A DNA stretch of 35,032 nt from Chloroflexota bacterium (lineage in GTDB: Bacteria > Chloroflexota > Dehalococcoidia > JACVQG01 > JAHKAY01). Location of the stretch: NCBI GenBank assembly GCA_018825785.1, contig JAHKAY010000007.1, positions 1 through 35,032 of the forward strand, given 5' to 3'. Position numbers and translations under genes: made by a program. Of this stretch, positions 2,244 through 27,813 are shown in pieces; within the stretch, counting starts at the first letter, position 1, and each line of letters opens with the position of its first letter. Under the pieces are notes generated by a model. That model did no database searches. It saw only the letters and a list, made by a program, of their open reading frames with translations, and was not told the DNA's origin.

Positions 2244-3701
2244 TCATCCCTCCGGTGGGACCAGCCCCAGGGCCAGGAAGAGGGCCCGGGCCTTGTCCAG
2301 GGTCTCCCGGTATTCGGCTTCCGGCATCGAGTCATAGACCACCGCCCCCCCCACCTGGAAGTAGGCCCGGCCCTCCTTGACCACGAAGGTGCGGATAGCC
2401 ATATTGAGCTCCATATCCCCGTGAAAGGAGATATAGCCGATAGCCCCGGTGTACACGCCCCGGCGGGTGGGCTCCAGCCCATCAATGACCTCCATGGCCC
2501 TCACCTTGGGCGCCCCGGTCACCGAGCCGCCGGGGAAGGCGGCCCGGAGGAGGTCCACCACCCCTAGCCCAGGGCGGAGCCGGCCTGCCACCGTGGAGGT
2601 CAGTTGCCAGACGGTAGCGTATTTCTCCAGGGTATAGAGCCGGGGCACCCGGACGGTGCCGAAGCGGCACACCCGGCCGATGTCGTTGCGCATCAGGTCC
2701 ACTATCATTACATTCTCCGCCCGGTCCTTGATGCTCCCCCGTAGGTCCCGGGCCAGGGCCCGGTCCTGCCCCGGTTCCGCTCCCCGGGGGCGGGTGCCCT
2801 TCATAGGCCTGGTCCTCACCCTGTCCCCTTCCAGCCGGAGGAAGAGCTCCGGGGAGGCGCTCACCACCTGGACACCGGGGAAGTTGAGATAGGCGGCGAA
2901 GGGCGCCGGGTTGCACTGGCGCAGTCTCCGGTAGAGCTGGTAGGGAGGGAAGGGTAAGGGCACCTCAAAGCGCTGGGAAAGGTTCACCTGAAATATGTCC
3001 CCTGCGGCGATATACTCCCGGGCCCGCTCTACTGCTCCCAAGTAGCCCTCCCGGCTGAAGTTCGCCCGGACGTCACCGACAGGGGGGCAGGGGCTCTCCT
3101 CCTGCGGTAACGCCGGCTGCTGGAGCCTGGCCAGAAGCTCCCGCAGGCGCCTTTGCGCACGGAGCTGCCTGGCTTCCGGGTCCACTTCTGGAAGCCCGGT
3201 GGAGACCAGGTAAGCCCTGCCCCGGCGGTGGTCGAAAGCCACCAGGGCATCGTAGAAGCCCAGATAGGCTTCGGGCAGCTCCAGGTCATCCCGGGCCTCA
3301 GCGGGCAGATGCTCTATGAAGTGGCACAGGTCGTATCCGAAGTAGCCAACAGCTCCCCCCACCAGGGGCAGGTCCGCCAGGCGAGCTACCCGGTAACACT
3401 CCAAGAATCCCCGCAGGACCTCAAAGGGGTCGCCCACCACTACCTCCTGCTTGCCATCCTCCCAAAGCAATAGCACCTGATTGCCTCGGCTACGGAGCAC
3501 GAGGAAGGGTTTGCTTCCCATAACGGAGAACCGTCCCAGCCCGCCGGCGAGGAGGGCGCTGTCCAGGAAGAAGCCGTAAGGTTCGCTCTGTAACCGTTGA
3601 AACGCCTGGAGCGGGGTAAGGCCGGTGAACACGGGCTCCACCAGCGGAACAAACGCCCCAGGCAACCGCACCAGTCCCCCTGTCTCAGTCAATACACCCA
3701 A
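2244..3701 (-). CDS. pabB: Aminodeoxychorismate synthase component I
   Basis: The 485-residue chorismate-binding enzyme has the signatures of the TrpE/PabB family: PMKGTRPRG near 299-307, KDRAENVMIVDLMRNDIGR, and FPGGSVTGAPK. The lysine at K301 in PMKGT is the nucleophile typical of PabB; TrpE carries alanine there (PIAGT). With pabC directly downstream this makes PabB the better call. The glutamine amidotransferase subunit (PabA/TrpG) is not in the window. The start used is TTG 3701, with TGGAG seven bases upstream. A promoter-like pair whose -10 overlaps this codon would put the transcript start near 3694, in which case an in-frame TTG at 3689 could be used. Confidence 0.9.
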   Translation of the reverse strand: MGVLTETGGLVRLPGAFVPLVEPVFTGLTPLQAFQRLQSEPYGFFLDSALLAGGLGRFSVMGSKPFLVLRSRGNQVLLLWEDGKQEVVVGDPFEVLRGFLECYRVARLADLPLVGGAVGYFGYDLCHFIEHLPAEARDDLELPEAYLGFYDALVAFDHRRGRAYLVSTGLPEVDPEARQLRAQRRLRELLARLQQPALPQEESPCPPVGDVRANFSREGYLGAVERAREYIAAGDIFQVNLSQRFEVPLPFPPYQLYRRLRQCNPAPFAAYLNFPGVQVVSASPELFLRLEGDRVRTRPMKGTRPRGAEPGQDRALARDLRGSIKDRAENVMIVDLMRNDIGRVCRFGTVRVPRLYTLEKYATVWQLTSTVAGRLRPGLGVVDLLRAAFPGGSVTGAPKVRAMEVIDGLEPTRRGVYTGAIGYISFHGDMELNMAIRTFVVKEGRAYFQVGGAVVYDSMPEAEYRETLDKARALFLALGLVPPEG

Positions 3702-3730
3702 TTATATTCTCCAGGAACAGCGGAACTCAA
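3701..3730 (-). promoter_or_regulatory. Possible promoter for pabB-pabC
   Basis: On the minus strand TTGAGT (3730-3725) and a perfect TATAAT (3706-3701) are 18 bases apart. The -10 box overlaps the annotated TTG start of pabB, so if it is active the mRNA would be nearly leaderless from a start a few codons further in. Confidence 0.45.
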
Positions 3731-3740
3731 AGGGCCAAAA

Positions 3741-3776
3741 TTCAAGGGGCTGTCTCGCTTGAGACAGCCCCTTGAA
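3741..3776 (-). terminator. Rho-independent terminator of the 39-residue-repeat protein gene
   Basis: A perfect 16-base-pair stem (3741-3756 with 3761-3776) closes a four-base loop. Read on the minus strand, it lies just after the stop at 3793 and is followed by TTTT, the layout of an intrinsic terminator. It separates that gene from pabB. Confidence 0.85.
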
Positions 3777-3792
3777 TATTCTGCCTTACTGC

Positions 3793-5487
3793 TTAAATCT
3801 TCTTCCGTCCCAGTATTGGCTCATCTTCGGTCTGAGCCTTGGCCAGAGGCACGCGGAGGCTGACGACGAACAGGACTGCCCCTGTCAGGATAAACAGAAT
3901 ATAGGTTAGACACATATAGAGCTTTAGACTGCTCAGGGCAGAGTTGACCGCATCGCCGAGCTTGACATCGCTAAGGCTCTTGACCGTGTCCCTATAGTCT
4001 ATTGCTCCCTGGTCCATGTCTGCCTTGGCCGCAACCAGGGAAGGGCTCAGGTCTGTTACCAGTTTGGTCACCGTCGCCTTTGAGGCCCCCAGGTCCCTGG
4101 AGGTAGTGCCGAGGCTGGTGGTAAGGCCTGCCAACTGGGTATTGGTTGTATTCAGGAAAGTAGTCGCCTGGCCTACCACATTGGTCACCGCCCCCTTGGT
4201 CGCCCTCACACTTCCCGCCGCTGCCGTAAGGCTGGTGTTAAGGGTGCCCAGACTTCCGGCGGTATCGTTCAGGGCACTGGTCACCTGCCCAACTACACCT
4301 GTCACCGCTGCCTTGCTCGCCTTCAAATCGTTGGCTGCCTTAGTCAGGCTCGCACCCAGGGTGCCCAGGTCTTTCCCGGTGGCATCAAGGGAGGTCCCAA
4401 CCTGCCCCACCATACCCCCAACCGTGGCACTGATCGCCCTCACACTACCGGCGGCGGTCTTGAGGCTCGCATCGAGGGCACTCACCTGCTTACCTGTGTC
4501 GCCCAGTACCACCCTTATCTGCTGGACCTGGCTGTCCACCAGGCCTATATTCTGGTCCACTTGCGCTATGGTGGCGGCAGTACCCAGGTCCAACGCATAG
4601 CCCAGACTCCTATAGGCGGTCCCCTGGGCCACCAGCAGGGAAGCGTCAATCCCAAAGGTGCTCTGGACGTACTGACCGATGGCTATCAGGTCATCGCCCG
4701 TAATCCGGTTCAAAGGTATGGGTACGGCAATCCCCGGCAACTGTATGGCGCTTTGCTTCGCCGCTGCCTGGATGGTCGCTCTCAACCCACCCGTCGCCTG
4801 TTGCAGGCTGGCGACGCTTTGGTCAGCGGCCACCAGGGCCCCACCGACCGCAGCCACCGCCCCAGAGGCTGAATCCAGGCTGGCGGCTGCGCCGTTCACT
4901 ATCTGAGCCACCTGCGTCTGGACCCCGGGCAGGCTGGCAGTCACCGACCCCAGCCCCGCTGCCACCTGTGTCACAGACGCGCCGGCCGCATCCAGGCTGG
5001 CAGCCGCGCTATCAACTATCTGAAGCACCTGCGTCTGTAGTGCCGGCAGGCTGGCAGTCACCGACCCCAGCCCAGTTGCCACCTGTGTCACAGACGCGGC
5101 GGCCGCATCCAGGCTGGCAGCCGCGTTATCCATTATCTGGCCCACCTGGATCTGGGCCGTGGGGAGGCTGGCACCCAGCCCGCTCAGGCCTTTCCCTACC
5201 TCGGTCAGGGACCTAGAAGCCGTGTCCAGGGTAGCAGTCGCGTCATCTATGATGAGGGATGCCTGCTTCTGGACATCGGGCAAGTCAGCATTCAACCCGC
5301 CCAGGAGAGCTGACATGTCCTCCCACGATGCGGCCTCACGGTTGAAGGAGGTGACAATGTCGGCCACCGCCTTGTCAGCATTCTCCGCCTGGGGCCCCAC
5401 TGCACCAAAGGCCACCAGCGACGCCACTAACCCTACAATGCCCAGGACCATCATAACGATAGAGACTACCTTTACCAAAATCTTCAT
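3793..5487 (-). CDS. Membrane-anchored repeat protein with two blocks of 39-residue repeats
   Basis: The 564-residue protein is not a family I recognise. A hydrophobic segment lies at about residues 7-29 and another near 523-546, so it seems anchored at both ends with a large helical region between. That region contains two arrays of 39-residue repeats. Block one starts at 76, 115, 154 and 193, with the motif (I/V)xxAAASLDxA. Block two starts at 335, 374, 413 and 452, with LGTLxxSL. A less repetitive part (about 245-330) joins them. The composition is Ala/Ser/Thr/Val rich, with few charged residues, like coiled-coil domains of chemoreceptor or tape-like proteins. The ATG start has an AGGAGGT site seven bases upstream. 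It has its own promoter and terminator and is divergent from the E1 operon. Confidence 0.85.
   Translation of the reverse strand: MKILVKVVSIVMMVLGIVGLVASLVAFGAVGPQAENADKAVADIVTSFNREAASWEDMSALLGGLNADLPDVQKQASLIIDDATATLDTASRSLTEVGKGLSGLGASLPTAQIQVGQIMDNAAASLDAAAASVTQVATGLGSVTASLPALQTQVLQIVDSAAASLDAAGASVTQVAAGLGSVTASLPGVQTQVAQIVNGAAASLDSASGAVAAVGGALVAADQSVASLQQATGGLRATIQAAAKQSAIQLPGIAVPIPLNRITGDDLIAIGQYVQSTFGIDASLLVAQGTAYRSLGYALDLGTAATIAQVDQNIGLVDSQVQQIRVVLGDTGKQVSALDASLKTAAGSVRAISATVGGMVGQVGTSLDATGKDLGTLGASLTKAANDLKASKAAVTGVVGQVTSALNDTAGSLGTLNTSLTAAAGSVRATKGAVTNVVGQATTFLNTTNTQLAGLTTSLGTTSRDLGASKATVTKLVTDLSPSLVAAKADMDQGAIDYRDTVKSLSDVKLGDAVNSALSSLKLYMCLTYILFILTGAVLFVVSLRVPLAKAQTEDEPILGRKKI
4018..4485 (-). 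repeat. Second array of four 39-codon tandem repeats
   Basis: Codons 335-490 of the repeat protein form four units of exactly 39 residues. They begin VSALDASL, LGTLGASL, LGTLNTSL and LAGLTTSL. They are less alike at DNA level than the first array, which suggests older duplications. Confidence 0.8.
4795..5262 (-). repeat. First array of four 39-codon (117-base) tandem repeats
   Basis: Codons 76-231 form four 39-residue units, with the last one diverging toward its end. The central units are close to identical at DNA level: the blocks around 4920-5000 and 5040-5120 share long exact runs. This points to recent unequal duplication inside the gene. Confidence 0.85.
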
Positions 5488-5574
5488 AACTTGACCTCCT
5501 GCCTTTTAGGATTGGACCCTTCCGGGGGCAAGCGTTTTCGACCTAGCCACCCTAGCATTCGCAATTCAGGCCTA

Positions 5575-5604
5575 ATTCTAGGCCCATGTCATAAAGGTTG
5601 TCAA
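5575..5604 (-). promoter_or_regulatory. Sigma70-type promoter of the 39-residue-repeat protein gene
   Basis: On the minus strand a perfect TTGACA (5604-5599) and TAGAAT (5580-5575) are separated by 18 bases. The start codon lies about 80 bases downstream, behind AGGAGGT. Confidence 0.7.
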
Positions 5605-5691
5605 TAGGGGAACTGAAATCTAGTTAAATTCTTCACACAGCTACGCCGGCACTGTGAGACGGCCCCGCCTGGTCCGGGCCCGGCCCTCTTG

Positions 5692-5720
5692 TTGAAAGCC
5701 TCAGGACGTTGTAGTACAAT
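5692..5720 (+). promoter_or_regulatory. Sigma70-type promoter of the E1 alpha/beta operon
   Basis: TTGAAA (5692-5697) and TACAAT (5715-5720) are separated by 17 bases. Transcription would begin near 5727 and leave a leader of about 100 bases before the ATG at 5827. Confidence 0.7.
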
Positions 5721-5826
5721 AGTAATAGTTCCGCGCTGAATGGGGGTGGAGGGCAAGTATGACCAAGATAATGGTTTCCACTTTTTCCAGCAGTTATCTT
5801 TTTCCAGCAACTAAAGGAGGAGTCCT

Positions 5827-7134
5827 ATGAAGCAAGCTTCTGTTCTTGACCGCCGTTCCTTTGTAAAAGCCTTGCTGGCAGCGGGGGCTACCAGCGTTGT
5901 GGCTTCTTGCCGTTCTGCTCCTGCAGGGGACACACCGTCTGCCCCGGCCGGGGGCAAAATAGACGCGCCATCGTGGATCCATCCTGCTTCCCTCATCCGG
6001 CCTCTTCCGGGGCCGGGGGGCAACCTGGCCTGGAAAGCGGGCGACACCCTGAAGTGGCTGACCCCCGAGAAGATAGCCCCGGGGAAGCCCGCCGACCTGC
6101 TGGCCAGCCTGCCCAAGGAAAAGCTGGCCGATATGTACCACAAGCTGTGGGTCATCCGCCTCTGGGAGACCGCCGTCAAGGACCTTTCCGTCACCGGCAA
6201 GGATGGGCTCTATGGGGTGGTCCACCTCTATGTGGGCCAGGAGGCCATGGCGGTGGGGTCCATTGCGGCCCTGAACCCCGATGACTATATCACCTCCACC
6301 CACCGGGGCCATGGCCACGTGATTGCCAGGGGTACCGACATCAACAAAATGATGGCCGAGATGTTCATGAAGGCGACGGGTTCAAATAAGGCCTACGGCG
6401 GGTCCATGCACATCTGTGATGAGAGCAAGGGGGTCCTCAGCGCCAACCCCATCGTTGGTGCCGGGGCCTACATCGGCGCCGGTGCCGCCTACAATATGAA
6501 GGTCCGGGGCTCCAAACAGGTGGTGATGACTTTCCTGGGCGATGGGGCCACCAACAGCCCCTACTACTTCAGCGCCCTCCGGCAGGCCACCATGTATAAG
6601 TGCCCCCTGGTGGTGGTGGTGGAGAACAACTTCCAGAACATGTGGATATCTATGGCAACGGTCAGCCCTACCCCCTGGTGTGCCGACCTGACGGTGGGCC
6701 TGGGTATCCCCTCCGTGGTAGTGGACGGCAACGACATCGCAGCCATGTACGCGGCCACCAAAGAGGCGGCGGAGCGGGCCCGGGCGGGCGAGGGGCCCAG
6801 CGTGGTGGAGGGCATCACCTATCGCTGGCTTGACCATGACGGGTTCGCCGGGGCCAAGGAACGGGTGGACGGCGCCTTCAACCTCCCCTACCGCACAGAC
6901 GACGAGGTCCGGCAGTGGATAGCCCGGGACCCCATCAAGCGGTTCCACTCCTTCCTGGTGGAGAAAAAGCTGTTCACCGACGCCGACCTGAAGGCGGCGG
7001 AGGCAGGTGCGCGCAAGGCGGTGGATGACTCTATTGACTTCGCCCGCAAGAGCCCGCTGCCTGCCCCGGAGGACGGGGTGAAGAATGTGTGGTCCCTCGG
7101 CCCGCTCCCGGCCACCCAGTTCGGAAAGGGATAG
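5827..7134 (+). CDS. TPP-dependent dehydrogenase E1 alpha subunit with Tat/lipoprotein-type signal
   Basis: The 435-residue protein resembles acetoin and pyruvate dehydrogenase E1 alpha. It has YVGQEAMAVG, the loop STHRGHGHVIARG, YGGSMHI, and the TPP/Mg motif GDG (238-240) with ENN at 266-268. Unlike those enzymes it begins with a twin-arginine motif DRRSFVK (residues 8-14), a short Ala/Val core and a lipobox VASC (Cys28), then a Pro/Ala/Gly linker. This predicts export in folded form by Tat and lipid anchoring. The start has an aaaggagg site. The E1 beta gene follows after 14 bases, so the pair is an operon. No lipoyl E2 or E3 gene is nearby, so the electron or acyl acceptor is unknown. The E1 alpha family call is firm; export and substrate are inferred. 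Confidence 0.92.
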   Translation: MKQASVLDRRSFVKALLAAGATSVVASCRSAPAGDTPSAPAGGKIDAPSWIHPASLIRPLPGPGGNLAWKAGDTLKWLTPEKIAPGKPADLLASLPKEKLADMYHKLWVIRLWETAVKDLSVTGKDGLYGVVHLYVGQEAMAVGSIAALNPDDYITSTHRGHGHVIARGTDINKMMAEMFMKATGSNKAYGGSMHICDESKGVLSANPIVGAGAYIGAGAAYNMKVRGSKQVVMTFLGDGATNSPYYFSALRQATMYKCPLVVVVENNFQNMWISMATVSPTPWCADLTVGLGIPSVVVDGNDIAAMYAATKEAAERARAGEGPSVVEGITYRWLDHDGFAGAKERVDGAFNLPYRTDDEVRQWIARDPIKRFHSFLVEKKLFTDADLKAAEAGARKAVDDSIDFARKSPLPAPEDGVKNVWSLGPLPATQFGKG

Positions 7135-7148
7135 AGAGGAGGCAAGGC

Positions 7149-8141
7149 ATGCCAAGAAAGTCTCGCATTCTTGCTCAGCTAGAGGCCGTCCAGTACTGGA
7201 TGCACAAGGACCCCACCATGCAGATCTTCTGGGAATACAGCAGCCTGGCAGGAATAACCCCGGAGGGCCGGAGCATCAATCTGTCTGCCGAGTTCCCCAG
7301 ACTGACCACCTGGCGGACCCCGGGCCCATGGGGTGAGCCCATAGATGAGACGTGGATCGCTAATGCCTCTATAGGTGCCGCCACCACCGGCGCCCGCGCC
7401 CTTGCCCGACTGCCGTCTATGGCTATCACCTATGCCCTGGAGTTCATCTTCAACCAGGCGGCCAAGTGGCGCCAGGGCAGCGGCGGGCAGTCAGGTCTGA
7501 GGTTTGTGGCCTGGCTCGATTTTGCCGGCCGGCGGGCGGGGATGGGTTCCCAGCACGCTGATGCGGGGCAGGAGACCTTTTACGCCAATATGCCCGGCCT
7601 CATCGTGGTAGTGCCGGGCACCGCCTACGATGCCAAGGGCCTGATGAACGCTGCCCTCGCGGGCGAGGACCCGGTGGCCTACTGCGACTACCTGGTCCTG
7701 GCCGCCCTCCCCATTGAGGACGTCCCCGATGACTACTACACCGTGCCCATCGGGAAAGCGGCTGTCCGGCAGGAGGGGAAAGACCTGACCCTGGCCTACT
7801 GGGGGGAAGTCACCCTGGATGTGGTGAGGGCCCTCCCTCTGCTCAAGTCGGCGGGGATCAGCGTGGAGGCCATTGACATCCGGACGCTGAAGCCCTTTGA
7901 CGAGAAGACTGTCGTCGATTCGGTAACGAAGACAAAGCGCCTCCTGGTGGTGACCCACGGGCACTTCACCGCCGACTTTGCCTCCCATGTGGTGGCTATC
8001 GCCGCCCTGAACGTGTCGGGGGCCAAGTTTGACATCATGGCCTTCCCCGACGCACCATCCCCAGCCTCCTATGATATGATGACCTGGATGACACCAGATG
8101 CGCAAAAGATCGTGGAGCGGGTCAAGAAGCTGGTGGGCTAA
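7149..8141 (+). CDS. TPP-dependent dehydrogenase E1 beta subunit
   Basis: The 330-residue protein is a transketolase-like E1 beta. Expected elements are present: an early glutamate in IFWEYSSL, the IDETWIANASIGAA segment matching the usual ISE(M)xFxGxAxGAA, and GSQHAD with His136. A C-terminal transketolase domain follows (about 205-330). The ATG at 7149 is chosen over an upstream in-frame ATG at 7089 because of the gagagGAGG site just before it and because the extra residues shadow the end of E1 alpha. There is no signal peptide, so if the complex is exported beta would have to be carried by the Tat-targeted alpha subunit. Confidence 0.9.
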   Translation: MPRKSRILAQLEAVQYWMHKDPTMQIFWEYSSLAGITPEGRSINLSAEFPRLTTWRTPGPWGEPIDETWIANASIGAATTGARALARLPSMAITYALEFIFNQAAKWRQGSGGQSGLRFVAWLDFAGRRAGMGSQHADAGQETFYANMPGLIVVVPGTAYDAKGLMNAALAGEDPVAYCDYLVLAALPIEDVPDDYYTVPIGKAAVRQEGKDLTLAYWGEVTLDVVRALPLLKSAGISVEAIDIRTLKPFDEKTVVDSVTKTKRLLVVTHGHFTADFASHVVAIAALNVSGAKFDIMAFPDAPSPASYDMMTWMTPDAQKIVERVKKLVG

Positions 8142-8168
8142 GCGGCATCGGGTTCTGGTGCCTGGCTT

Positions 8169-8196
8169 GAGGGGCCCCGAGGGCTCGGGGCCCCTC
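8169..8196 (+). terminator. GC-rich hairpin after E1 beta
   Basis: A 12-base-pair stem (8169-8180 with 8185-8196) closes a four-base loop, 28 bases after the E1 beta stop. No T tract follows, so termination may be partial or the hairpin may protect the 3' end. Confidence 0.55.
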
Positions 8197-8227
8197 GGCT
8201 ATCCGATAGGTTTCAGGAGGACGGAAA

Positions 8228-8629
8228 ATGGGTGTTGAGGGAGTGGGACCAGGGCCAGGGGAGCACCCGGAAGTGGAGCCGTATCAGTTCGTTGAGGAGC
8301 CGGAGGCAAAGGAGGTCCCGCTCGAGGTCTCCTGTCCGCGCTGTGGCGGGCCTACCAGGGTAGATATGGTAAGGAGCGACATCTGGCAGGGGGACCATCT
8401 GATTGTGGTGGAGGACATCCCCGCCCTTGTGTGCGATAGATGTGTAGAACAGTTCTATTCCGAGCCGGTGACCGACGCCCTGCGGAGGCTGGTGCAAGAG
8501 GGGCTGGAGTCGGCTAAGCCGAAGAGGGAGATGGTTGTCCGAGTCTATTCCCTGGCCGGGCGGGTAAAGGTGCCACAACCGCCACCTGAAATGGGCTACT
8601 GGTCCAGGGTGCCCCCGGAGGGGGCATAG
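8228..8629 (+). CDS. YgiT-type zinc-finger protein
   Basis: The 133-residue protein has paired cysteines at 36/39 (CPRCGG) and 69/72 (CDRC). The segment IPALVCDRCVEQFY is typical of the YgiT-type zinc finger, the N-terminal part of MqsA-like antitoxins. It has no recognisable helix-turn-helix and no toxin gene beside it, so it is probably not a toxin-antitoxin system. The first 30 residues are Gly/Pro/Glu rich and the C-terminus is unassigned. The start follows a good caggagg site. It has no export signal although its neighbours do. Confidence 0.75.
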   Translation: MGVEGVGPGPGEHPEVEPYQFVEEPEAKEVPLEVSCPRCGGPTRVDMVRSDIWQGDHLIVVEDIPALVCDRCVEQFYSEPVTDALRRLVQEGLESAKPKREMVVRVYSLAGRVKVPQPPPEMGYWSRVPPEGA

Positions 8630-8668
8630 AGCACCGACCAGCGCCAGGGGGTTGCTTTCCAGGCCTGC

Positions 8669-8698
8669 TTGCCCTCAGGGCCGGTGCCCTGCTATAAT
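8669..8698 (+). promoter_or_regulatory. Promoter of the heme lipoprotein cluster
   Basis: TTGCCC (8669-8674) and a perfect TATAAT (8693-8698) are 18 bases apart. The ATG at 8719 lies only about 14 bases after the predicted transcript start and has no clear Shine-Dalgarno site, so the first gene would have a very short leader. Confidence 0.55.
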
Positions 8699-8718
8699 AG
8701 ACCCCAAAATTAAGACTA

Positions 8719-9102
8719 ATGTTACGGCGAGGTATTGCTATTCTAATGAGTACCGGTATTCTGTTGGGGGCGGCCTGCAGACCTGCTGCCAAGCCAACAC
8801 CAGCTCCCATCCCGACACCTACTCCCCTCCCAACGCCCTCTTCAACACCAACGCCTGGCAGCCTGGCCGGGTTTTTCCCGCCGGGCCCGGGGCGGGAGGA
8901 GGTTATTTTCTACTGTGGGAACTGTCATAGCCTATCCCTTCCTCTGGTAGCGCGGAAGGCTCCAGAAGCCTGGGTGGACTTCATTAAGAGCCACCCGGGG
9001 GCAGAGTTCCTGCCCGAGGAGACACTGAAACCCCTGCTGGAATATCTCACCGCCAACTTCGGACCCGATGACCCGGTCCCGGAGATTCCCCCTGGACTAT
9101 AA
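8719..9102 (+). CDS. Heme c lipoprotein, copy 1
   Basis: The 127-residue protein has a signal peptide with lipobox LGAAC (Cys20), a Pro/Thr linker (about 25-47), and a small C-terminal domain with one heme c site, CGNCH (66-70). It is predicted to be lipid-anchored outside the membrane. A shared pattern RKxPxxW...F(I/L)xxH follows the heme site in this set. At the place where copy 4 has Met (a usual sixth heme ligand), this copy has Leu (EFLPEET). A conserved His 22 residues after the heme His could serve instead. It is the first of four tandem paralogues. Confidence 0.82.
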
Positions 9103-9679
9103 GAAGGAGGCGACAATCTCGCGGCGACGGGTTCTAGTCCTGGCGCTCTCCGGAGGGCTTCTGCTGGCGGCCTGCGGCCCAAAAGCCACTCCCCAACCTG
9201 CACCCACTCCCACTCCTACGCCTAGAATAACTCCTGCCCTCACTCCCACACCTACACCCGCACTCACCCTGACGCCTACACCCAACCCGACACCTGCCTC
9301 TACCCCAACGCCTACTCCCGTTCGTACCCCCACGGCTACACCTACCCCCACGCCTCCCGCAACACCCACACCAGCGCCTGCCCCCTGGTCTCCGCCTGCC
9401 GGCAGCCTCAACCTAAACGATTACCTCCCACCGGGTCCAGGAAAAGATGCAGTCATCAATGAATGCGCCAACTGTCACAATATAATACGTATCCTAATCA
9501 GCCGGAGGTCTCCAGTAGGGTGGGAGAACTTCCTCAGAGACCACCCGAACGTGGTCATCAGTGAGCAGACAATCAGACTCCTGACAGAATATCTCGCTGC
9601 CAGCTTCGGCCCCGATGACCCGATCCCTCACATACCCCCGGAGCTGTCCGCCGGAGATGGCGGCGCAGGTGAGGTCTAA
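9068..9679 (+). CDS. Heme c lipoprotein, copy 2 (start uncertain)
   Basis: The frame encodes a lipobox LLAAC, a Thr/Pro linker of about 65 residues, and a CANCH heme site at 9464-9478, followed by the shared RRSPxGW...FLxxH pattern. The only canonical start upstream is ATG 9068, which overlaps copy 1 by 35 bases, lacks a Shine-Dalgarno site and gives 203 residues. By alignment with copies 3 and 4 the expected start is at 9116, right after a strong aaggagg, but the codon there is ATC. Initiation at ATC (187 residues), a G-to-C change, or use of ATG 9068 are the options. The Met ligand position is Ile. Confidence 0.78.
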
Positions 9680-9689
9680 ACGCTATTTA

Positions 9690-9850
9690 GGGAGGTGTCA
9701 TCGTTACTGCGAAGCCCATGGCTATGGTGAGCGCAGACGGACCTCTGGCGGCATGGCCTGGTCCGTCCAAGCGAGGAGCAGTTGAAGCCCATCTTAGAGT
9801 ATGCTAGCATGTGCTTCGGTCTCGGGGCTCCGGTCCCGGATATGCTTATG
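9690..9850 (+). pseudogene. Decayed heme c lipoprotein copy
   Basis: Between copies 2 and 3 lies DNA matching both ends of the paralogues with the middle missing. Near 9691-9712 ggaggtgtca is followed by a start-like region, and near 9742 ctggcggcatggcc recalls the lipobox region. From 9773 the frame reads EEQLKPILEY...FGLGAPVPDM, matching the copy 1 tail [10 protein letters not shown]...[10 protein letters not shown]. The heme site is absent, so this is a deleted, non-functional copy. Confidence 0.65.
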
Positions 9851-9888
9851 GAACCGAGAGACCGGTTAGGCTGTTTGAGGAGGCGCCA

Positions 9889-10287
9889 ATGCTACGGGGG
9901 ATTTTGATACCCTTGACGCTCATTGTACTGCTGGTGGCGGCCTGTGGCCCGAAAGCCACCCCCCAGCCAACAGCTACCCCCACGCCCACCCAGGTGCCCC
10001 ACCCGGGGCCTGACCCCACCCCACCCCCCGGCGCCCAGGTTGCCTCGTTCTTTGCAGACGGTCCGGGGAGGGACCTGGTCTTGGAGTGGTGCGGGACCTG
10101 CCACAGCCTGACCCGTATCCTGACCACGCGGAAGGACCCGGCGGGATGGGCCACCTACATGAAGAATCGCCGGGCCGATATAGCCTTCCTGGGGGACGAG
10201 GAAGTGAAAACCATAACAGACTATCTCGTTGCCAACTTCACCCCCGATAAGCCCATTCCGCAACTCCCCCCGGCGCTGACCCGGTGA
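9889..10287 (+). CDS. Heme c lipoprotein, copy 3
   Basis: The 132-residue protein has a lipobox LVAAC (Cys19), a short Thr/Pro linker and a CGTCH heme site at 68-72 with the shared RKDPAGW pattern. The ATG at 9889 is chosen over an in-frame ATG at 9811 because it follows gaggagg at good spacing and begins a proper signal peptide. The Met ligand position is Leu, and the His conserved in the other copies is Arg here. This makes copy 3 the most divergent in possible heme ligands. Confidence 0.82.
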
Positions 10288-10327
10288 TGAGGCTATTCAA
10301 AAGATGAGACTACTTAAGGAGGTGTCA

Positions 10328-11083
10328 ATGCTACGGCGATGGGTCCTCATCCTGGTACTCGCCAGCGCGTTGCTGCTGGCAGCCTGCACCTGTGGCGGGG
10401 GGGCCAAAACCCCAACCCCCACACCTACCCGGACTCCAACTGCCACCCTGGCGCCGACTGCCACGCCTGCGCGAACGCCTACACCTACACCAACATCTAC
10501 AGCCACCCTGACACCTGCTTCCACCTCAACACCTACTCGCACCCCCACCCCTACCCCTACAGCGACGCCTACACCTGCACCTACTCCCACACTTACTCCC
10601 ACACCTACCCCTACACCTACACCTACACCTACACCTACACCTACACCTACATCTACCCCTACGCCTACACCTACTCCTACTCCTACACCTACACCTACAT
10701 CTACCCCTACGCCTACACCTACACCTACTCCTACTCCTACTCCTACATCAACACCCACGACTACCCCGGCTCCCACGGCAACGCCAGCATGGACGCCACC
10801 TGCCAACCCTACCAGCCTGGCCGACTTCCTCGCGCCTGGTCCAGGAAGGGCCGTGTTTCTCAATAACTGCTCGGGCTGTCATAGCGTGGCCACTACCCTG
10901 ATCTCGCGGAAGGCCCCGGACGGCTGGGAGAGCTTTATTCACGACCACCGAGTCAACACCGGTATGAACGATGCCGATGCGAAGACCCTCACAGACTATG
11001 TCATTGCCAACTTCAACACCAATGTGCCTGATTTCGATATCCCCCCGCAGCTGCTTGCTGGTGAAGTTATTACACCCTTCTAG
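10328..11083 (+). CDS. Heme c lipoprotein, copy 4, with very long Thr-Pro linker
   Basis: The 251-residue protein has a signal peptide with lipobox LLAAC (Cys20), then about 130 residues of almost pure Thr-Pro repeats, then a CSGCH heme site (181-185) and the shared RKAPDGW...FIHDH pattern. It is the only copy with Met (in NTGMNDAD) where a class I cytochrome ligand is expected, so it is the best candidate for normal His/Met heme. The ATG at 10328 follows aaggaggtgtca. The linker would lift the heme domain well away from the membrane or through a surface layer. Confidence 0.85.
10420..10770 (+). repeat. Hexanucleotide microsatellite encoding the Thr-Pro linker
   Basis: The linker of copy 4 is made of repeated six-base units of the CCTACA type, nearly pure from about 10560 to 10760. 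Each unit adds one Thr-Pro pair, so slippage by whole units changes linker length without breaking the frame. Confidence 0.85.
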
Positions 11084-11084
11084 G

Positions 11085-11337
11085 GAGATGTCAGCGCTGT
11101 GGCCATGAGCTCTTGTCCTGGTGGTAGGCAGTCTTGGGGGGTAGGCGGCGCGCCAAGAAGGGCGCCGCCTACCCCCCGCCCCGCCCCACCCCCCAAAGCT
11201 AGCCCCGGCGGGAAAGCTTAACCTTGACCAGACCTTTCCCCAAGCTCGGGGGAGACCTGGTCATTATATATTGTGATGCCTGTCACGGTGTCCATCCGGA
11301 CGTCGTCGCGGGGCCGGCAGGCACGACGCCGGAGTAG
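11085..11337 (+). pseudogene. Second decayed heme c lipoprotein copy
   Basis: After copy 4, 11085-11135 resembles a paralogue 5' end (gggagatgtca, then a ctcttgtcctggt stretch). From 11215 a frame reads SLTLTRPFPKLGGDLVIIYC and then DACH, ending at TAG 11335-11337. This matches the pre-heme segment and heme site of the intact copies (for example [14 protein letters not shown]). It has no start codon or usable linker and is truncated after the heme site. The region also contains a strong hairpin. I see nothing else in 11084-11443 apart from the aaaggag site before 11444. Confidence 0.6.
11136..11177 (+). terminator. Strong hairpin after the heme lipoprotein cluster
   Basis: A perfect 16-base-pair GC-rich stem (11136-11151 with 11162-11177) closes a 10-base loop, about 50 bases after the copy 4 stop. 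No T tract follows. It may end or stabilise the cluster transcript. Confidence 0.6.
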
Positions 11338-11443
11338 AGAGGAGGGATAGTGCGTGCCAAATATACTAACGAAGGGGCGGTAGAAGTGGGGCCTACAGGT
11401 CCAGACCGGCAGGGGCAGGGCCTGATGGCGGCAAAGGAGTAGC

Positions 11444-12898
11444 ATGCTTCACAACTTGCTTCCCAACACCCTTCCTTTTCTGGGCTTCTTCACCGGGCTG
11501 GTTATCGTCTACTATCTGATTCCTCACAGGTTCCGCTGGCTTCTCCTGCTATTGGGCAGCCTCTTCTTCTACGGGACCTTCAACGTGGGTTATGTGGCGT
11601 TGCTGGCCGGGTTCACCCTGTTCATCTACCTGATGAGCCTGGTGACAGCGGCCCGTCAAGGTGGCCTGCGGCGGGTCCTCCTGGTGGTGGGGTTGGTGGG
11701 AGGGGTGATACCGCTGTTAGTGTTCAAGTACTACGATAACTTCTTCCTGCGCTACCTCTTGACCGCCCCCTCCATTCCACGGCTCAATTGGCTGTTGCCG
11801 GCGGGACTTTCCTTCTACACCTTCTCGTGTTTGAGTTACCTGGTGGATATATACCGAGGAAAACTCCCCGTGGAGAAGCACCTGGGGCGGATGGCGCTCT
11901 ATGTGGCCTTCTTCCCGAAGCTGCTGGCAGGGCCTATTGACCGGGCCACGACCTTTCTGCCACAGCTTTTGAAGCCGGCGCGGTTCAATCGGGAGGAGGT
12001 CGCCCTGGGGCTCCAGATGGTGCTGTGGGGGCTGGTGAAAAAGGTAGTGATAGCGGACCGGCTGGCGGTCTTTGTCAACCAGGTGTACCAGTCGCCGGGG
12101 ACGGCTTCACCGGTTGACCTGGTGCTGGCCTCGTATTTCTTCGCCTTCCAGATTTACTGCGACTTTTCGGGCTACACGGACATGGCCATCGGGATGGGAC
12201 GGGTGCTGGGGATTAATCTCATGGAGAACTTCCGGCGGCCATACTTCTCTACCTCAATAAATGAGTTCTGGACGCAAAGGTGGCACATCTCACTCACCCG
12301 CTGGTTCCGAGACTACATGTTCATCCCGCTGGGTGGGAGCCGGGTGGCGAAGTGGAGGTTTTACCTCAACCTGATAGTCGTGTTCGCGGTCAGCGGCCTG
12401 TGGCACGGGTCCAACTTGGTCTTCTTAATCTGGGGGACGTTGCAGGGGGTATGGCAGGTGCTGGCGCTGATGACGGCCCCCGCCAGGAACTGGATAGCAA
12501 AGCTGCTACGGGTGCCGGGGAAGGTGGGGACGGTTATCAGTGCGCTAGCGGTGTTCCACATGGTGCTGACGGGCTGGGTTTTCTTCGCGGTGGGGTATGT
12601 GAGGGGCACAGCGGCCACATTGAATGACGCGCTGACAGTGTTTAGACAGGTGGGGAAGGACTTCACTGACCTGCCCAGCCAGTTCGCACATAAGTCATAC
12701 AGCCCGGAACTGCTCCTCTCCTTCGGGCTGCTGGGATTTCTGATCCTGATGGAGGTCATGGAAGAAAGGTGGAACCTGTGGGCGAAGATGAGGGTGCGGC
12801 CGGTGTACCTGCGCTGGGCGGTGTACTACGCCCTCATCCTCGGCCTGTTGGCCTTTGGGGTCTGGCAGCAGACCAGATTCGTCTACATGGCATTCTGA
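11444..12898 (+). CDS. MBOAT family O-acyltransferase (AlgI/DltB-like)
   Basis: The 484-residue protein has many membrane segments and the MBOAT landmarks: AGPIDRATTFLPQL, CDFSGYTDMAIGMGRVLGI, RWHISLTRWFRDYMFIPLGG, and the catalytic His321 in SGLWHGSN. In alginate or teichoic acid systems, such proteins pass an acyl group across the membrane to an extracellular acceptor. The start follows aaaggag. The SGNH-type partner begins just after its stop, the typical AlgI-AlgJ/X arrangement. The acceptor here is unknown; a surface polysaccharide is likely. Confidence 0.92.
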   Translation: MLHNLLPNTLPFLGFFTGLVIVYYLIPHRFRWLLLLLGSLFFYGTFNVGYVALLAGFTLFIYLMSLVTAARQGGLRRVLLVVGLVGGVIPLLVFKYYDNFFLRYLLTAPSIPRLNWLLPAGLSFYTFSCLSYLVDIYRGKLPVEKHLGRMALYVAFFPKLLAGPIDRATTFLPQLLKPARFNREEVALGLQMVLWGLVKKVVIADRLAVFVNQVYQSPGTASPVDLVLASYFFAFQIYCDFSGYTDMAIGMGRVLGINLMENFRRPYFSTSINEFWTQRWHISLTRWFRDYMFIPLGGSRVAKWRFYLNLIVVFAVSGLWHGSNLVFLIWGTLQGVWQVLALMTAPARNWIAKLLRVPGKVGTVISALAVFHMVLTGWVFFAVGYVRGTAATLNDALTVFRQVGKDFTDLPSQFAHKSYSPELLLSFGLLGFLILMEVMEERWNLWAKMRVRPVYLRWAVYYALILGLLAFGVWQQTRFVYMAF

Positions 12899-12920
12899 GA
12901 TGGACAAAGGGAGAGAGACA

Positions 12921-14366
12921 ATGCAGAGTGGACAGAAGGTTCCAGAAAAAGGCCAGGGCGGCCAGCCGCCCAAGCTCCCGAAGGCAATGGGGGCCGGGGG
13001 GTTCCTGTGGCGGGGCCTCATCTTCCTGCTGGTGGGGCTGGTGCTGTACAGCGGAGTGTATGCGTGGTCCGAGAACCTCGTACACAGTAACACCGAGCTT
13101 AACCGCTTCTACAAGATAAAGACCGCCGAGAACAGCCCCTACGACTGGGTGTTCTTCGGGGCCTCCCACGCTCTGGTGATGGACCTTCAAGATATGAACG
13201 CCCAGCTTGAGGAGATCACCGGGTCCAAGATATTGAACCTCGGCGAGATGGGAGGGGGCCCTGCCGTCAGCGGGGTATTGCTCGACTACTTCCTTGCGAA
13301 GCACGAGACGCGCGGGGCGGTGTACTTCGTAGACTCATTCGTCTTCTATTCCGACTTCTGGAATGAGGGGCGTCTGGCAGACGTGGGGCTGTACCAGCGG
13401 GCGCCTTTTGACCCGGCACTGGCTAAGGTTCTGCTCCAGAACTCCGCGACGCGGTGGAAGGGGCTGGACTACCTCTTCGGATTCTCCAAGAACAACTTCT
13501 GGGTGACCGGGAAAATCAATAGCTTGCGGGAGTTCAATGAGACTACATTCAGAAGCTCGCAGGAGTTCAAGGAGGCTACTACCAAACTGGACAACAAGGC
13601 AGACTGGCCACGCATCTTCCCAGGCATCGCAGCCTGGAGGGACAACTCGCAGGCGTTCAAGTCCGATATCTCCGGCTTCCCGCAGGCGGCCTCTTTCACC
13701 AAGAGATGGGGTGGGGTGCCCCAGCTTGATAGGCAGCGGATGGACTACCTCTACGGCGTGGTCACCGGCACGCACAGGGGCGTGGCCGACGCCGTCTCGC
13801 TCACAGACACTACCAAGGACTTCTCCAACCCCAACTTGGGTGTGAAAGTCGGCGGTACACTCACCAACATCACCGACGGGTCGTCCACAACGATTACGGC
13901 CATCACCACGACCACGGAGCCCAACGACACGCTTGTGGGAGTTCTCTCCGGCGGTGCGGAGAATGACTGGGACGAGGGCGATGTCTACGTGTATGGCAAT
14001 ATGGAAGTGGACATGGTCTTCTACGAGCGCTACATGACGGACTTCGAAAACCAGATTGAACGCCTGAAAGAGAAGAACGCCCGCGTAGTCCTCATCCGGT
14101 CGCCGCTCCCGAACTGGGTGCGCAACATGACGCCCTCAGATGCCTGGAAGAAGATACTCTCTAACAAAGAGAACTGGTTTGACGAGCAGATAAGAGGTGT
14201 GGCGGAGAAGCACGGCGTGGAACTGTATGACTTCTCGAAGAGTGTTCCCTCACAGAGCCAGTACTGGATGGACACTGACCACTTGAACCAGGCCGGCATG
14301 CTGTACTTCGCACAGCAGGCGAAGGCCGCATCCGGGGAGCTATTTAAGGATATCCTGAAGCCCTAG
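12921..14366 (+). CDS. SGNH/AlgJ-like membrane-anchored acyltransferase partner with inserted beta-rich module
   Basis: The 481-residue protein has an N-terminal membrane helix (about 29-48), a nucleophile-like motif GASHAL (80-85) and a C-terminal DTDHL (D451, H454) that would complete an SGNH/GDSL catalytic set. With the MBOAT gene upstream it probably transfers acyl groups onto an extracellular glycan. Between these motifs, at about 290-362, lies a Thr/Gly/Val-rich stretch (SLTDTTKDF, VGGTLTNITDGSSTTITAI, GGAENDWDEGDVYVYG) that looks like a small beta module seen in adhesin or tail-fibre-like proteins. The ATG at 12921 is preferred for its gggag site; ATG 12900, directly after the MBOAT stop, is possible. 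Confidence 0.78.
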   Translation: MQSGQKVPEKGQGGQPPKLPKAMGAGGFLWRGLIFLLVGLVLYSGVYAWSENLVHSNTELNRFYKIKTAENSPYDWVFFGASHALVMDLQDMNAQLEEITGSKILNLGEMGGGPAVSGVLLDYFLAKHETRGAVYFVDSFVFYSDFWNEGRLADVGLYQRAPFDPALAKVLLQNSATRWKGLDYLFGFSKNNFWVTGKINSLREFNETTFRSSQEFKEATTKLDNKADWPRIFPGIAAWRDNSQAFKSDISGFPQAASFTKRWGGVPQLDRQRMDYLYGVVTGTHRGVADAVSLTDTTKDFSNPNLGVKVGGTLTNITDGSSTTITAITTTTEPNDTLVGVLSGGAENDWDEGDVYVYGNMEVDMVFYERYMTDFENQIERLKEKNARVVLIRSPLPNWVRNMTPSDAWKKILSNKENWFDEQIRGVAEKHGVELYDFSKSVPSQSQYWMDTDHLNQAGMLYFAQQAKAASGELFKDILKP

Positions 14367-14391
14367 CCAAACTGCACGCTTCGCGATGTCA

Positions 14392-14425
14392 GGAGCCTCC
14401 CTCCCCGGCCGGGGAGGGAGGCTCC
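14392..14425 (+). terminator. Intrinsic terminator after the acyltransferase pair
   Basis: A perfect 15-base-pair stem (14392-14406 with 14411-14425) with a GGCC loop, followed by ctttgt, sits 25 bases after the stop at 14366 and upstream of the rpmH promoter. Confidence 0.8.
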
Positions 14426-14475
14426 CTTTGTCGCAGTCCCCACAAGCCCCTGGGCCTGTGTGTAGCCTCTTTCAA

Positions 14476-21534: not shown

Positions 21535-22203
21535 CTAGCGGCGGCCCTGGAGGAGCCCTACCATTTCCAGCTCCAGGTTTCGCAGTCGCGAAGCGGTGAT
21601 GCTGGCGATGTCCTGCATTATCAGGAGGCCCATCCTGGGGTCTGACCGCATCAGTGCCAGAAGGGCTTCTCGCTCAACGGCACGGACCCGGGTCGGGGAC
21701 AACGCCACCACAGTGGCGGTGAACTGGTAGGGCCGCACGAGGGCTGACCAGCCGAAGGCTCCACCCGCAGATACAGAGGTAATAGGGACGCGTTTCCCAT
21801 TTTGGAGCTCGCACTCCACGGCTACCTGCCCCTCCTCCACCAGGTATAGCCTGTGGGCCTCAGCGCCCTGCTTGCAGATTATGGCGCCCGCCTCGTAAGT
21901 CTCGGTGCGCTCCAGGCTTTCTACCCGCTGCCTTTGCTCCTCGGTGAGGCTACCGAAGATATACACCGTGGGCAGGGCTTCCATAACAGGCACCGCTCTG
22001 GACCGGGCTTGTTGGGGCGTCCCTGCCAGTGCCTTCAGGGTGGCCCCCACAAGCAACGGGTCTATGTTCCCCTCCCCACCGCACTCAGGATGATAACAGG
22101 TGACGTTGTTGAAGAGACAGGCCTGCTGGCAGCCGGGGCAGCGCTCAGGGGGGCTGGCCGCTTGAAGGTGATAGCCGCAGTTCGTACACATCCAGTGGGC
22201 CAC
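21535..22203 (-). CDS. Rubredoxin-like metal-binding domain fused to a cyclic-nucleotide-binding domain
   Basis: The 222-residue protein begins with a rubredoxin/rubrerythrin-like knuckle pair, CTNC (Cys6/Cys9) and CPGC (Cys22/Cys25), plus three more cysteines at 29, 36 and 41. From about 80 it is a CRP-type cyclic-nucleotide-binding domain (YEAGAIICKQGAEAHRLYLVEEG, GGAFGWSALV). The usual phosphate-binding Glu and Arg of FGExALL...R are not kept, so cAMP binding is doubtful. There is no C-terminal DNA-binding helix-turn-helix. The start is GTG 22203, six bases after AGGAGG, rather than the in-frame GTG at 22218. A redox- or metal-linked sensor is possible; function unknown. Confidence 0.82.
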   Translation of the reverse strand: MAHWMCTNCGYHLQAASPPERCPGCQQACLFNNVTCYHPECGGEGNIDPLLVGATLKALAGTPQQARSRAVPVMEALPTVYIFGSLTEEQRQRVESLERTETYEAGAIICKQGAEAHRLYLVEEGQVAVECELQNGKRVPITSVSAGGAFGWSALVRPYQFTATVVALSPTRVRAVEREALLALMRSDPRMGLLIMQDIASITASRLRNLELEMVGLLQGRR

Positions 22204-22239
22204 AGGACACCTCCTCACCGGGATTATGGAGTCAGGGAT

Positions 22240-25835: not shown

Positions 25836-26339
25836 CTACCTGGAAACGGCCCTCACCCGCGGCAGAATGGCTTCCTTGCTGGAGAAGGCCCCCACAGTGA
25901 TGCTCCGCACCACACCCTCCCGGTCCAGGATAAAGGTGGTGGGGAGAGTGCTGATATTGTACAGCGTTGCCACATCCCCCGTCTGATTCATGACCACAGG
26001 AATGGTGATGCCCCTTTCTTTCATGAACTGGGCCACCATCTCCGGGCCCTCCTCCCCAATATCAACAATTAGGAACGCCACACCCTCGTCCTGGACCTCC
26101 TCCCAGGCCGCCTGGAGGAAGGGCATCTCCGCCCGGCAGGCAGGGCACCAGCTGGCAAAGAAGTTCAGCAGCACCACCTTCCCCCGGAACTGGGCCAGGG
26201 AAACAGGGGACCCATCCGCCAGGGAGGGAAGGGTAAAGGCAGGGGCCGGCCGGCCGAGCTGAACTGACGTAGACCCCCGGCAGGCCCCCAGAAGGAGAAG
26301 GCCCAGGACAAAGGCCAGGAAAATCAGCCTAGAGCGCAT
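25836..26339 (-). CDS. TlpA/ResA-like thiol-disulfide oxidoreductase lipoprotein
   Basis: The 167-residue protein has a lipobox LLGAC (Cys20) and a thioredoxin fold of the AhpC/TSA-Redoxin type with active site WCPAC (Cys65, Cys68) and the cis-proline segment TLPTTFI. The ATG at 26339 follows aggagg and overlaps the ccdA stop by 11 bases; an in-frame ATG at 26378 is less likely. ResA-like proteins take electrons from CcdA and reduce CxxCH cysteines outside the membrane so heme can be attached. This fits the four heme lipoproteins in this window. Confidence 0.92.
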   Translation of the reverse strand: MRSRLIFLAFVLGLLLLGACRGSTSVQLGRPAPAFTLPSLADGSPVSLAQFRGKVVLLNFFASWCPACRAEMPFLQAAWEEVQDEGVAFLIVDIGEEGPEMVAQFMKERGITIPVVMNQTGDVATLYNISTLPTTFILDREGVVRSITVGAFSSKEAILPRVRAVSR

Positions 26340-27024
26340 ACGAGACCTCCTGATAGACAATATATACCCCAGCCACAATCAGGACAAGGCCGGTTATCCA
26401 CCTCATCCAGGGCAGCAGAGAGCGCAGGCGCCGGATGATGGCTTCTTTGGCCAGGGCGCTGGCGAGGCTGACCACCACTATCACCGACCCCATCCCCAGC
26501 CCGTAGCTTATGAACTCCCTCAGTCCCCCCACCGCTCCCTGGGAAGAGAAGGCCCAGCCCACCAGTACCAGGAAAATGGGCAGGGAGCAGCCCAGGGAGA
26601 CCACCCCGTACACCAGGCCAAAGAGGAAGAAGGCCAGAGGCCCCCTCCCTTTGGGGAGCTGGAGGGGGGAGGTGAAGCCCAACAGCTTCCCCCGGAGGTG
26701 CCAAATCCCCACCCCTATAAGTCCCACCCCCGCCACCACCCCCAGCCAGGGGAAGGCCTGCGTGAGCGACTGGCCCGCGTAGTGCAGTACTATCCCCGCC
26801 ACCGAGAAGAGGACGGCAAAGCCCAGCGTGGCCAGGAGGCCCAGGCCCAGGGCCCTCAGGAGCCGCCTCTCACCCCCTTCCAGATAGTAGCCCACATAGG
26901 CCACCAGCAGGGGAAATCCGCAGACGCTGACCGAAGCCAGGACCCCCGCCCCAAAAGCATACCCCACGGGCAGGTTCTGGACAAAGGTCTGCAGGAGGCC
27001 CCTCAGCGGGGAGGAAAGGTCCAA
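26329..27024 (-). CDS. ccdA: CcdA-like transmembrane electron carrier for cytochrome c maturation
   Basis: The 231-residue membrane protein has about six hydrophobic segments and the paired conserved cysteines of the DsbD/CcdA family, in VSVCGFPLL and SLGCSLPIF. It moves reducing power from thioredoxin across the membrane to the TlpA/ResA-like protein encoded next. The start used is TTG 27024, three bases after the lgt stop. No ATG near the N-terminus fits better. Confidence 0.9.
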   Translation of the reverse strand: MDLSSPLRGLLQTFVQNLPVGYAFGAGVLASVSVCGFPLLVAYVGYYLEGGERRLLRALGLGLLATLGFAVLFSVAGIVLHYAGQSLTQAFPWLGVVAGVGLIGVGIWHLRGKLLGFTSPLQLPKGRGPLAFFLFGLVYGVVSLGCSLPIFLVLVGWAFSSQGAVGGLREFISYGLGMGSVIVVVSLASALAKEAIIRRLRSLLPWMRWITGLVLIVAGVYIVYQEVSYAL

Positions 27025-27027
27025 GGC

Positions 27028-27813
27028 TCAGCTGCCCAACGCCTCCTTCTTAACCCAGTGGGCCCGGGCCACCAGCCAGGGCACCGCCACCAGGAGGATG
27101 AGCAAGGCAATAAGCTGGGCCTGGACCAGCCCGAAAAGCCAGGGATTGTTCACCCGGGTGAAGGTGATGAAAAAACGCCCCACGGAATAGAGGGCCAGGT
27201 ATAAGACAAATAGGGAGCCATCGGGCCGGAGCCTCCCCCTCAGCCGGAGGACAATCGCCAGCACAATCAGGTCCCAGACAATCTCATAGACAGGGGAGGG
27301 ATGAGTGGGGACCCCCTGGGGGGCATAGGTATCGGGATTGGTATAGGTGAAGGCCCAGGGCAGGTCTGTAGGCTTGCCGGTGGCATCCCCGTTGACGATA
27401 TTGGCCAGGCGGCCTATGGCCTGGGCTATGATAAGCCCCGGGGCAAACAGGTCGGCAAACTTGCGGAAGGGAATACGGTGGACCCGGGAGCCTATCCAGG
27501 CGGCCAGGGCCCCCCCCAGGATGGCCCCGTAGATGGCCTGCCCCTCCCCGCCGATGATTTTCCCCGGGTTCTCCAGGTAGTAGCTCAGCTGGTCTATAAC
27601 ATGGACCAGCTTGGAGCCGATTATCCCCCCCGGGATGCCCCAGAGGGCCAGGTTGGTAACGTCATCAGGTTTGAGCCCCAGCCTCTTGGCCTCCCTCCAG
27701 GAAAAATATAAGGCCGCCAGCACCGCTACGATGATAATCGAGCTGTACCAGCGCAGGCTGAAACCCCCCACCCTGAAGATGGTCGGGTCTATGTTTATCA
27801 CGATACCGGCCAT
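27028..27813 (-). CDS. lgt: Prolipoprotein diacylglyceryl transferase
   Basis: The 261-residue membrane enzyme adds diacylglycerol to the lipobox cysteine of prolipoproteins. The family signature IGRLANIVNGDATG with Arg135 is present, as are the C-terminal YSVGRFFITFTR residues. At the place of the E. coli His103 the sequence has Tyr95 (QAIYGAILGG), a substitution that may be normal for this lineage. Its substrates here include the lipoproteins encoded at both ends of the window. The ATG overlaps the end of the FAD oxidoreductase gene by 16 bases. Confidence 0.94.
   Translation of the reverse strand: MAGIVINIDPTIFRVGGFSLRWYSSIIIVAVLAALYFSWREAKRLGLKPDDVTNLALWGIPGGIIGSKLVHVIDQLSYYLENPGKIIGGEGQAIYGAILGGALAAWIGSRVHRIPFRKFADLFAPGLIIAQAIGRLANIVNGDATGKPTDLPWAFTYTNPDTYAPQGVPTHPSPVYEIVWDLIVLAIVLRLRGRLRPDGSLFVLYLALYSVGRFFITFTRVNNPWLFGLVQAQLIALLILLVAVPWLVARAHWVKKEALGS

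Follow-up and report, generated by a model that had tools for sequence, protein, structure and literature searches.

The window is the whole stretch of 35,032 nucleotides analysed here. On its forward strand, the gene at 5827–7134 encodes the alpha subunit of a thiamine-diphosphate dehydrogenase E1 component with a Tat-type lipoprotein signal (copy 1), as assigned from a Pfam E1_dh match, a structure match, and conservation of the signal. The reading frame runs from an ATG at 5827 to the stop codon at 7134 and gives 435 residues with the N-terminus MKQASVLDRRSFVKALLAAGATSVVASC; AAAGGAGGAG lies a short way before the start codon. A promoter-like site, TTGAAA-17-TACAAT, is placed upstream (5692–5720, forward strand) by consensus match only. 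Residues 1–28 (5827–5910, forward strand) form the predicted signal peptide, in which DRRSFVK is followed by an apolar core and the lipobox VASC. Pfam E1_dh (PF00676) matches residues 124–414 with E = 1.2e-65 over profile positions 18–299 of 300, indicating a complete domain. The beta subunit gene (7149–8141, forward strand; Transketolase_C, 1.7e-20; Transket_pyr, 2.9e-08) starts 14 bases past the alpha stop and encodes 330 residues with no signal. A sequence-only reading had described this combination of signal, complete alpha domain, and adjoining beta gene, and it is confirmed here.

Compared with solved structures, the window alpha subunit matches human pyruvate dehydrogenase (PDH) E1 alpha with E = 2.3e-41, and its predicted fold (model pTM 0.72) matches PDH and BCKD E1 components of both human and bacterial origin. 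The score against TIGR03182, the equivalog model for acetyl-transferring PDH E1 alpha, is 255.6 bits and lies under the cut-off of 393.85. The closest E1 alphas outside the family described below are 42–44% identical over the E1 domain.

The genes following beta, all on the forward strand, should be noted. A YgiT-type zinc-finger protein with no signal (8228–8629; TIGR03831, E = 1.2e-09, above the cut-off) is followed by four monohaem c-type cytochrome lipoproteins, recognized from sequence and alignment. Their haem motifs are CGNCH in cytochrome 1 (8719–9102), CANCH in cytochrome 2 (9068–9679, where the start may lie further in), CGTCH in the SorB-like cytochrome 3 (9889–10287; SorB model, E = 4.9e-5, below the cut-off), and CSGCH in cytochrome 4 (10328–11083). 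A very long Thr-Pro repeat linker separates the lipobox from the haem domain in cytochrome 4, and linker length differs widely between the cluster cytochromes. Next come an MBOAT acyltransferase (11444–12898; PF03062, E = 8.6e-21) with FVYMAF, the FxYxxF acyl-shuttle motif, at its C-terminus, and an SGNH/DltD-like MBOAT partner (12855–14366), assigned from its GASHA and DTDH motifs, with a start that is probably further in. The reverse strand carries a thioredoxin-like lipoprotein of the ResA/TlpA type, named from sequence (25836–26378), which may help cytochrome c maturation, and a prolipoprotein diacylglyceryl transferase, Lgt (27028–27813; PF01790, E = 1.5e-59). Also on the reverse strand are a long membrane protein with a coiled coil, repeated segments, and a weak DUF1664 match (3793–5487), transcribed away from the E1 operon, and a rubredoxin-like zinc finger fused to a cyclic-nucleotide-binding domain (21535–22218).

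The order alpha, beta, YgiT-type zinc finger, cytochromes, MBOAT, and SGNH/DltD-like protein is found in full at three loci (the window, L166, and L168), which span two phyla by record label and contain four, two, and four monohaem cytochromes, respectively. It is partly kept in L053, L100, and L167. The 8-kb locus read for L100 extends from alpha through the SGNH gene, with a beta-lactamase-fold lipoprotein between them. On L167, the contig that holds L109, cytochromes accompany two alpha/beta pairs; genes of ResA-like, HtrA-like, and NapH-like type were named there by eye. At 2928–14440 of this contig, two HtrA-like protease genes separate the alpha/beta/cytochrome sets, and the ResA-like thioredoxin and NapH-like genes come after. 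Past the cluster in L168 (16409–20000) lie a Tat signal-bearing ferredoxin-like subunit and xanthine-dehydrogenase-like subunits (by eye). Cytochrome genes adjoin every family copy with a readable downstream flank. Most of the clusters read include the YgiT-type zinc finger, which could act as a regulator in the cytoplasm or as a Tat chaperone.

The own genome (G000; 1.59 Mb, 60 contigs, 97% complete) contains further E1 loci. A search of this genome located a second signal-bearing alpha (copy 2) at 1–1164 on the reverse strand, which has a TTG start, runs off the contig edge, and shows LDRRSFIK and the lipobox VAAC. Copy 2 is 50% identical to copy 1 and carries VLDRRSFIKGMLAAGATVTVAAC. The end of contig C11 repeats the gene order of the window, with a beta fragment, an ORF for a zinc finger, and a lipoprotein with CxxCH; C11 also has another CxxCH stretch whose frame seems to be broken. 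It is probable that C7 joins C11 and that the beta fragment is the partner of copy 2. At G000:C60:15533-15700 (L004), all that is left of a further, degraded family alpha is the signal region plus an N-terminal motif. The third E1 alpha/beta pair of this genome (L003, G000:C6:74101-75972) lacks a signal, lies beside a nucleotide-sugar epimerase-like gene, and may be a non-lipoyl thiamine enzyme acting in sugar metabolism.

A scan of 84,980 species with a DNA pattern for DHxGFAGAK returned 37 stretches, and the family is present in five of them. This added six alphas from five genomes: L100, L102, and L109 (two copies), titled Chloroflexi bacterium in their records, and two whose record title is 'Comamonas sp. 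lk' (label only), L096 and L112. Because the scan needs exact matches, five genomes is a lower bound. Beyond the own genome, a search of 60 relatives and full-length surveys of 393 genomes of the class and 400 genomes of the phylum gave no family member, and the two-copy alpha alignment found no relative in the genome and viral contig collections. A survey of the class to which G743 belongs (298 genomes) found members only in G743 and G742, and one of the order of G739 (399 genomes) only in G739. When 400 genomes of the phylum were searched with the N-terminus, all matches outside the own genome were unrelated proteins; among them, by eye, are a molybdoenzyme-like protein with a Tat signal (L041) and a lipoprotein of the solute-binding kind (L042). 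In G002 and G008, coverage that seemed to reach the N-terminus came from read-through, and both alphas are in ordinary clusters with lipoyl-E2-like genes. The plasmid collection gave only what appear, at less than 60% identity, to be ordinary E1 alphas. All eight family alphas match PF00676, and a tree of the E1 domain from which the signal was left out unites them in a single clade (100/100).

The eight-alpha alignment, which covers six genomes and includes both copies of the window genome, is important for judging the signal. The Pfam TAT_signal match of the window alpha is weak (residues 7–26, E = 0.027, below the cut-off), so the case for a signal rests on comparison across the family. Arg9, Arg10, Phe12, Ala19, and Gly20 are invariant, and RRxF is present in all eight sequences. 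TIGR01409, the NCBIfam TAT signal model, detects six of the eight at E ≤ 0.1 (best, 3.6e-4), and PF10518 matches four. In the signal region of both close pairs, dN is well under dS: the values for L109b and L100 are 0.095 and 0.76, and L096 and L112 differ by two silent changes with no amino-acid change. No credible Tat signal was found in the 86 best-scoring non-family E1 alphas; a regular-expression flag on one of them was spurious, being upstream of the E1 domain and showing no family resemblance.

Shine-Dalgarno-like sequences stand before the alpha starts. Their position, together with the conservation, rules out a start downstream of the signal, and orthologues starting downstream of the signal region were sought and none was met. 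Mis-assembly as the source of the signal is ruled out by its recurrence in five other genomes. The own genome encodes TatC (E = 6.4e-60) with adjoining TatA-like ORFs (by eye), and no complete copy of beta (window, L096/L112, L109, L100, and L168) has a signal. These observations make predicted Tat export of the alpha/beta pair, with beta as a passenger, well supported. The same export with beta hitchhiking had been proposed from the sequence, and it agrees with the invariant signal in the orthologues, the signal-less beta, the presence of TatA and TatC, and neighbours predicted to act outside the membrane. The cytochromes, the acyltransferase pair, and the second copy had no part in that proposal. 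The lipobox tether proposed along with export holds for the own genome only. Both copies of the window genome have the lipobox Cys (VASC and VAAC), whereas the other six alphas lack it; the N-termini of these six look like standard Tat signals, and several have AxA-like sites.

The residues expected for thiamine catalysis are largely retained. The thiamine-diphosphate motif of the window alpha, GDGA...ENN, is kept, while the third Gly of GDG is replaced by Asn or Gln (GDN/GDQ) in three of the eight alphas. Glu67 of beta aligns with Glu60 of Thermus E1 beta and is Glu in all complete copies. His136 of beta and the loop residue His337 of alpha are invariant in the family copies compared. The retention of Glu67, His136, His337, and ENN argues for an active thiamine enzyme. 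The loop at DHxGFAGAK differs from that in human E1 alpha.

The cytochromes resemble small haem subunits. A profile built from six of them matches SorB (2blf_B, E = 3e-5) and the haem domains of quinohaemoprotein amine dehydrogenase (2.2e-5 and 6e-5), which are parts of exported dehydrogenases. The SorB model detects nine of 17 cytochromes at E ≤ 0.1, the best at 4.9e-5, well under the curated cut-off. The predicted cytochrome fold (pLDDT 85.7) also has SorB as its best PDB match, though a weak one (Foldseek E = 0.18). CxxCH is present in all 17 sequences and an aligned Trp in 16. The residue at Trp+7 should be noted. It is His in 16 of the 17, whereas SorB has Met there, which we take to be its haem ligand. 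This pattern suggests that the cluster cytochromes probably have a bis-His, lower-potential haem. Cytochrome 3 of the window is the only one of the 17 without His at Trp+7, and it is the best SorB match.

The sequence-only reading had pointed to the possible absence of E2 and E3 nearby. Neither is present in the fully read clusters (window, L166, and L168), and a search of the 97% complete own genome with PF00198 (2-oxoacid_dh, E2) detected none, while control genomes were positive. The five other family genomes all have E2 domains elsewhere, so the absence of E2 stands for the own genome and is not a rule of the family. For cytoplasmic 2-oxoacid oxidation, the own genome has three POR-type proteins.

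The export signal is conserved and the cluster encodes membrane-anchored cytochromes; therefore, in the bacterium of the window and a small number of others, this E1 probably works on the outer side of the membrane and passes its electrons to haem proteins. We favour, with moderate confidence, a Tat-exported, cytochrome-linked thiamine-diphosphate dehydrogenase for a 2-oxoacid or acetoin-type substrate, with beta hitchhiking. Alpha and beta would fold with thiamine diphosphate in the cytoplasm, as in the E1 family. The twin-arginine signal of alpha would carry the complex through Tat with beta as the hitchhiker, as the sequences support. In the window genome, the lipobox Cys would anchor alpha on the outer face of the membrane; in the relatives, the signal may be cleaved or the protein held in some other way. 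Once outside, the enzyme would attack a 2-oxoacid or acetoin-like substrate. Its electrons would bypass the lipoyl group of E2 and pass to the monohaem, probably bis-His, cytochrome lipoproteins encoded downstream, and the acyl product, for example acetate, might be released or consumed by the MBOAT-SGNH pair. We infer the partnership with the cytochromes from gene order and resemblance. Ferricyanide, DCPIP, and similar artificial one-electron acceptors can take electrons from E1 enzymes, and a haem acceptor is therefore chemically reasonable.

The exported complex might instead be non-oxidative, decarboxylating or condensing 2-oxoacids outside the membrane while the cytochromes serve another step. 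Thiamine enzymes with related folds do perform such chemistry, and both the alteration of the DHxGFAGAK loop relative to human E1 alpha and the lack of E2 in the own genome fit this idea. However, the nearest families are oxidative E1 components, and cytochromes stand beside each copy whose downstream flank can be read. We regard non-oxidative chemistry as rather unlikely.

What fits least well is the recurrence of the MBOAT-SGNH pair, which electron transfer alone does not explain. The FxYxxF motif, present in all four cluster MBOATs as a C-terminal FxYMxF, is the acyl-shuttle motif of PatA and relatives, and MBOAT-SGNH pairs acylate envelope polymers (PMC12148441). A specific combination, in which E1 oxidizes a 2-oxoacid outside the membrane, transfers the electrons directly to a bis-His cytochrome instead of lipoyl E2, and the pair puts the acyl group made outside onto an envelope polymer, would be a system not described before and seems to us unlikely. 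A related explanation makes polymer modification the function itself: the exported E1 would make or remove an acyl or keto group together with the pair, and the cytochromes would take the electrons. In favour of this explanation, the two acyltransferase genes come after the cytochromes in one and the same order at four loci (the window, L166, L168, and L100). Such pairs, however, normally take acyl groups from cytoplasmic acyl-CoA (PMC12148441), which makes an exported E1 unnecessary, and no polymer-synthesis genes were seen among the cluster genes. Polymer modification as the main function is, in our judgement, distinctly unlikely.

The N-terminus could also be a hydrophobic extension of a cytoplasmic E1 with no working export signal. 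The below-cut-off Pfam TAT match of the window protein would agree with this, and to our knowledge all known E1 components are cytoplasmic, mitochondrial, or plastid. Against it stand RRxF, which is invariant over eight diverged alphas under purifying selection and lacking from other E1 alphas, the conserved neighbours placed outside the membrane, and the own genome without E2, and we consider it very improbable. A conventional lipoyl-complex E1 (pyruvate, branched-chain, or acetoin dehydrogenase), as the full E1 fold and the identity to the nearest non-family alphas would allow, can be set aside in view of the signal, the separate clade, the absence of E2 and E3 from the three full clusters, and the absence of an E2 domain from the own genome.

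The 2-oxoacid dehydrogenase E1 is a cytoplasmic, mitochondrial, or plastid part of a lipoyl machine. If the exported, cytochrome-linked dehydrogenase is real, E1 chemistry would also take place outside the membrane, with electrons going straight into a haem chain. It would offer a testable case of thiamine-haem electron exchange, of a thiamine enzyme exported by Tat, and of a gene cluster found in two phyla (by record label). The sequence-only reading knew of no described exported E1, and none was found in the collection of open-access papers searched. Dehydrogenases that are exported and use cytochromes as acceptors, and hitchhiker subunits, have been described (PMC6719666, PMC4760952); a thiamine E1 as the catalytic part appears to be the new element.

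The E1 components of PDH, BCKD, and AcoAB share the alpha/beta architecture, the fold, and the thiamine-diphosphate and active-site residues with the enzyme described here. Unlike them, it has a Tat signal, an inserted GFAGAK loop, and cytochrome and acyltransferase neighbours; E2 and E3 do not adjoin it, and the own genome has no E2 domain. PoxB and pyruvate:ferredoxin oxidoreductase are thiamine enzymes that oxidize pyruvate without E2, but they are cytoplasmic, use flavin/quinone or Fe-S/ferredoxin, and have other domain layouts. The MBOAT and SGNH genes share FxYxxF and the SGNH motifs with PatAB, AlgI/AlgJ, and DltBD, whereas the pair here sits after an E1/cytochrome operon. Sulfite dehydrogenase SorAB is an exported dehydrogenase with a small monohaem cytochrome, as proposed here, and the cluster cytochromes appear to be distant relatives of SorB. 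SorA is a molybdoenzyme, in contrast to the thiamine E1, and SorB differs at Trp+7 as described above. The direct-electron-transfer FAD glucose dehydrogenase is a Tat hitchhiker with an electron-transfer subunit (PMC6719666). As proposed for the alpha/beta pair, the signal of one subunit carries a signal-less partner, and an electron-transfer subunit takes the electrons. Its chemistry is that of flavin and Fe-S, and its signal is on the small subunit, whereas the signal here is on alpha, the catalytic subunit.
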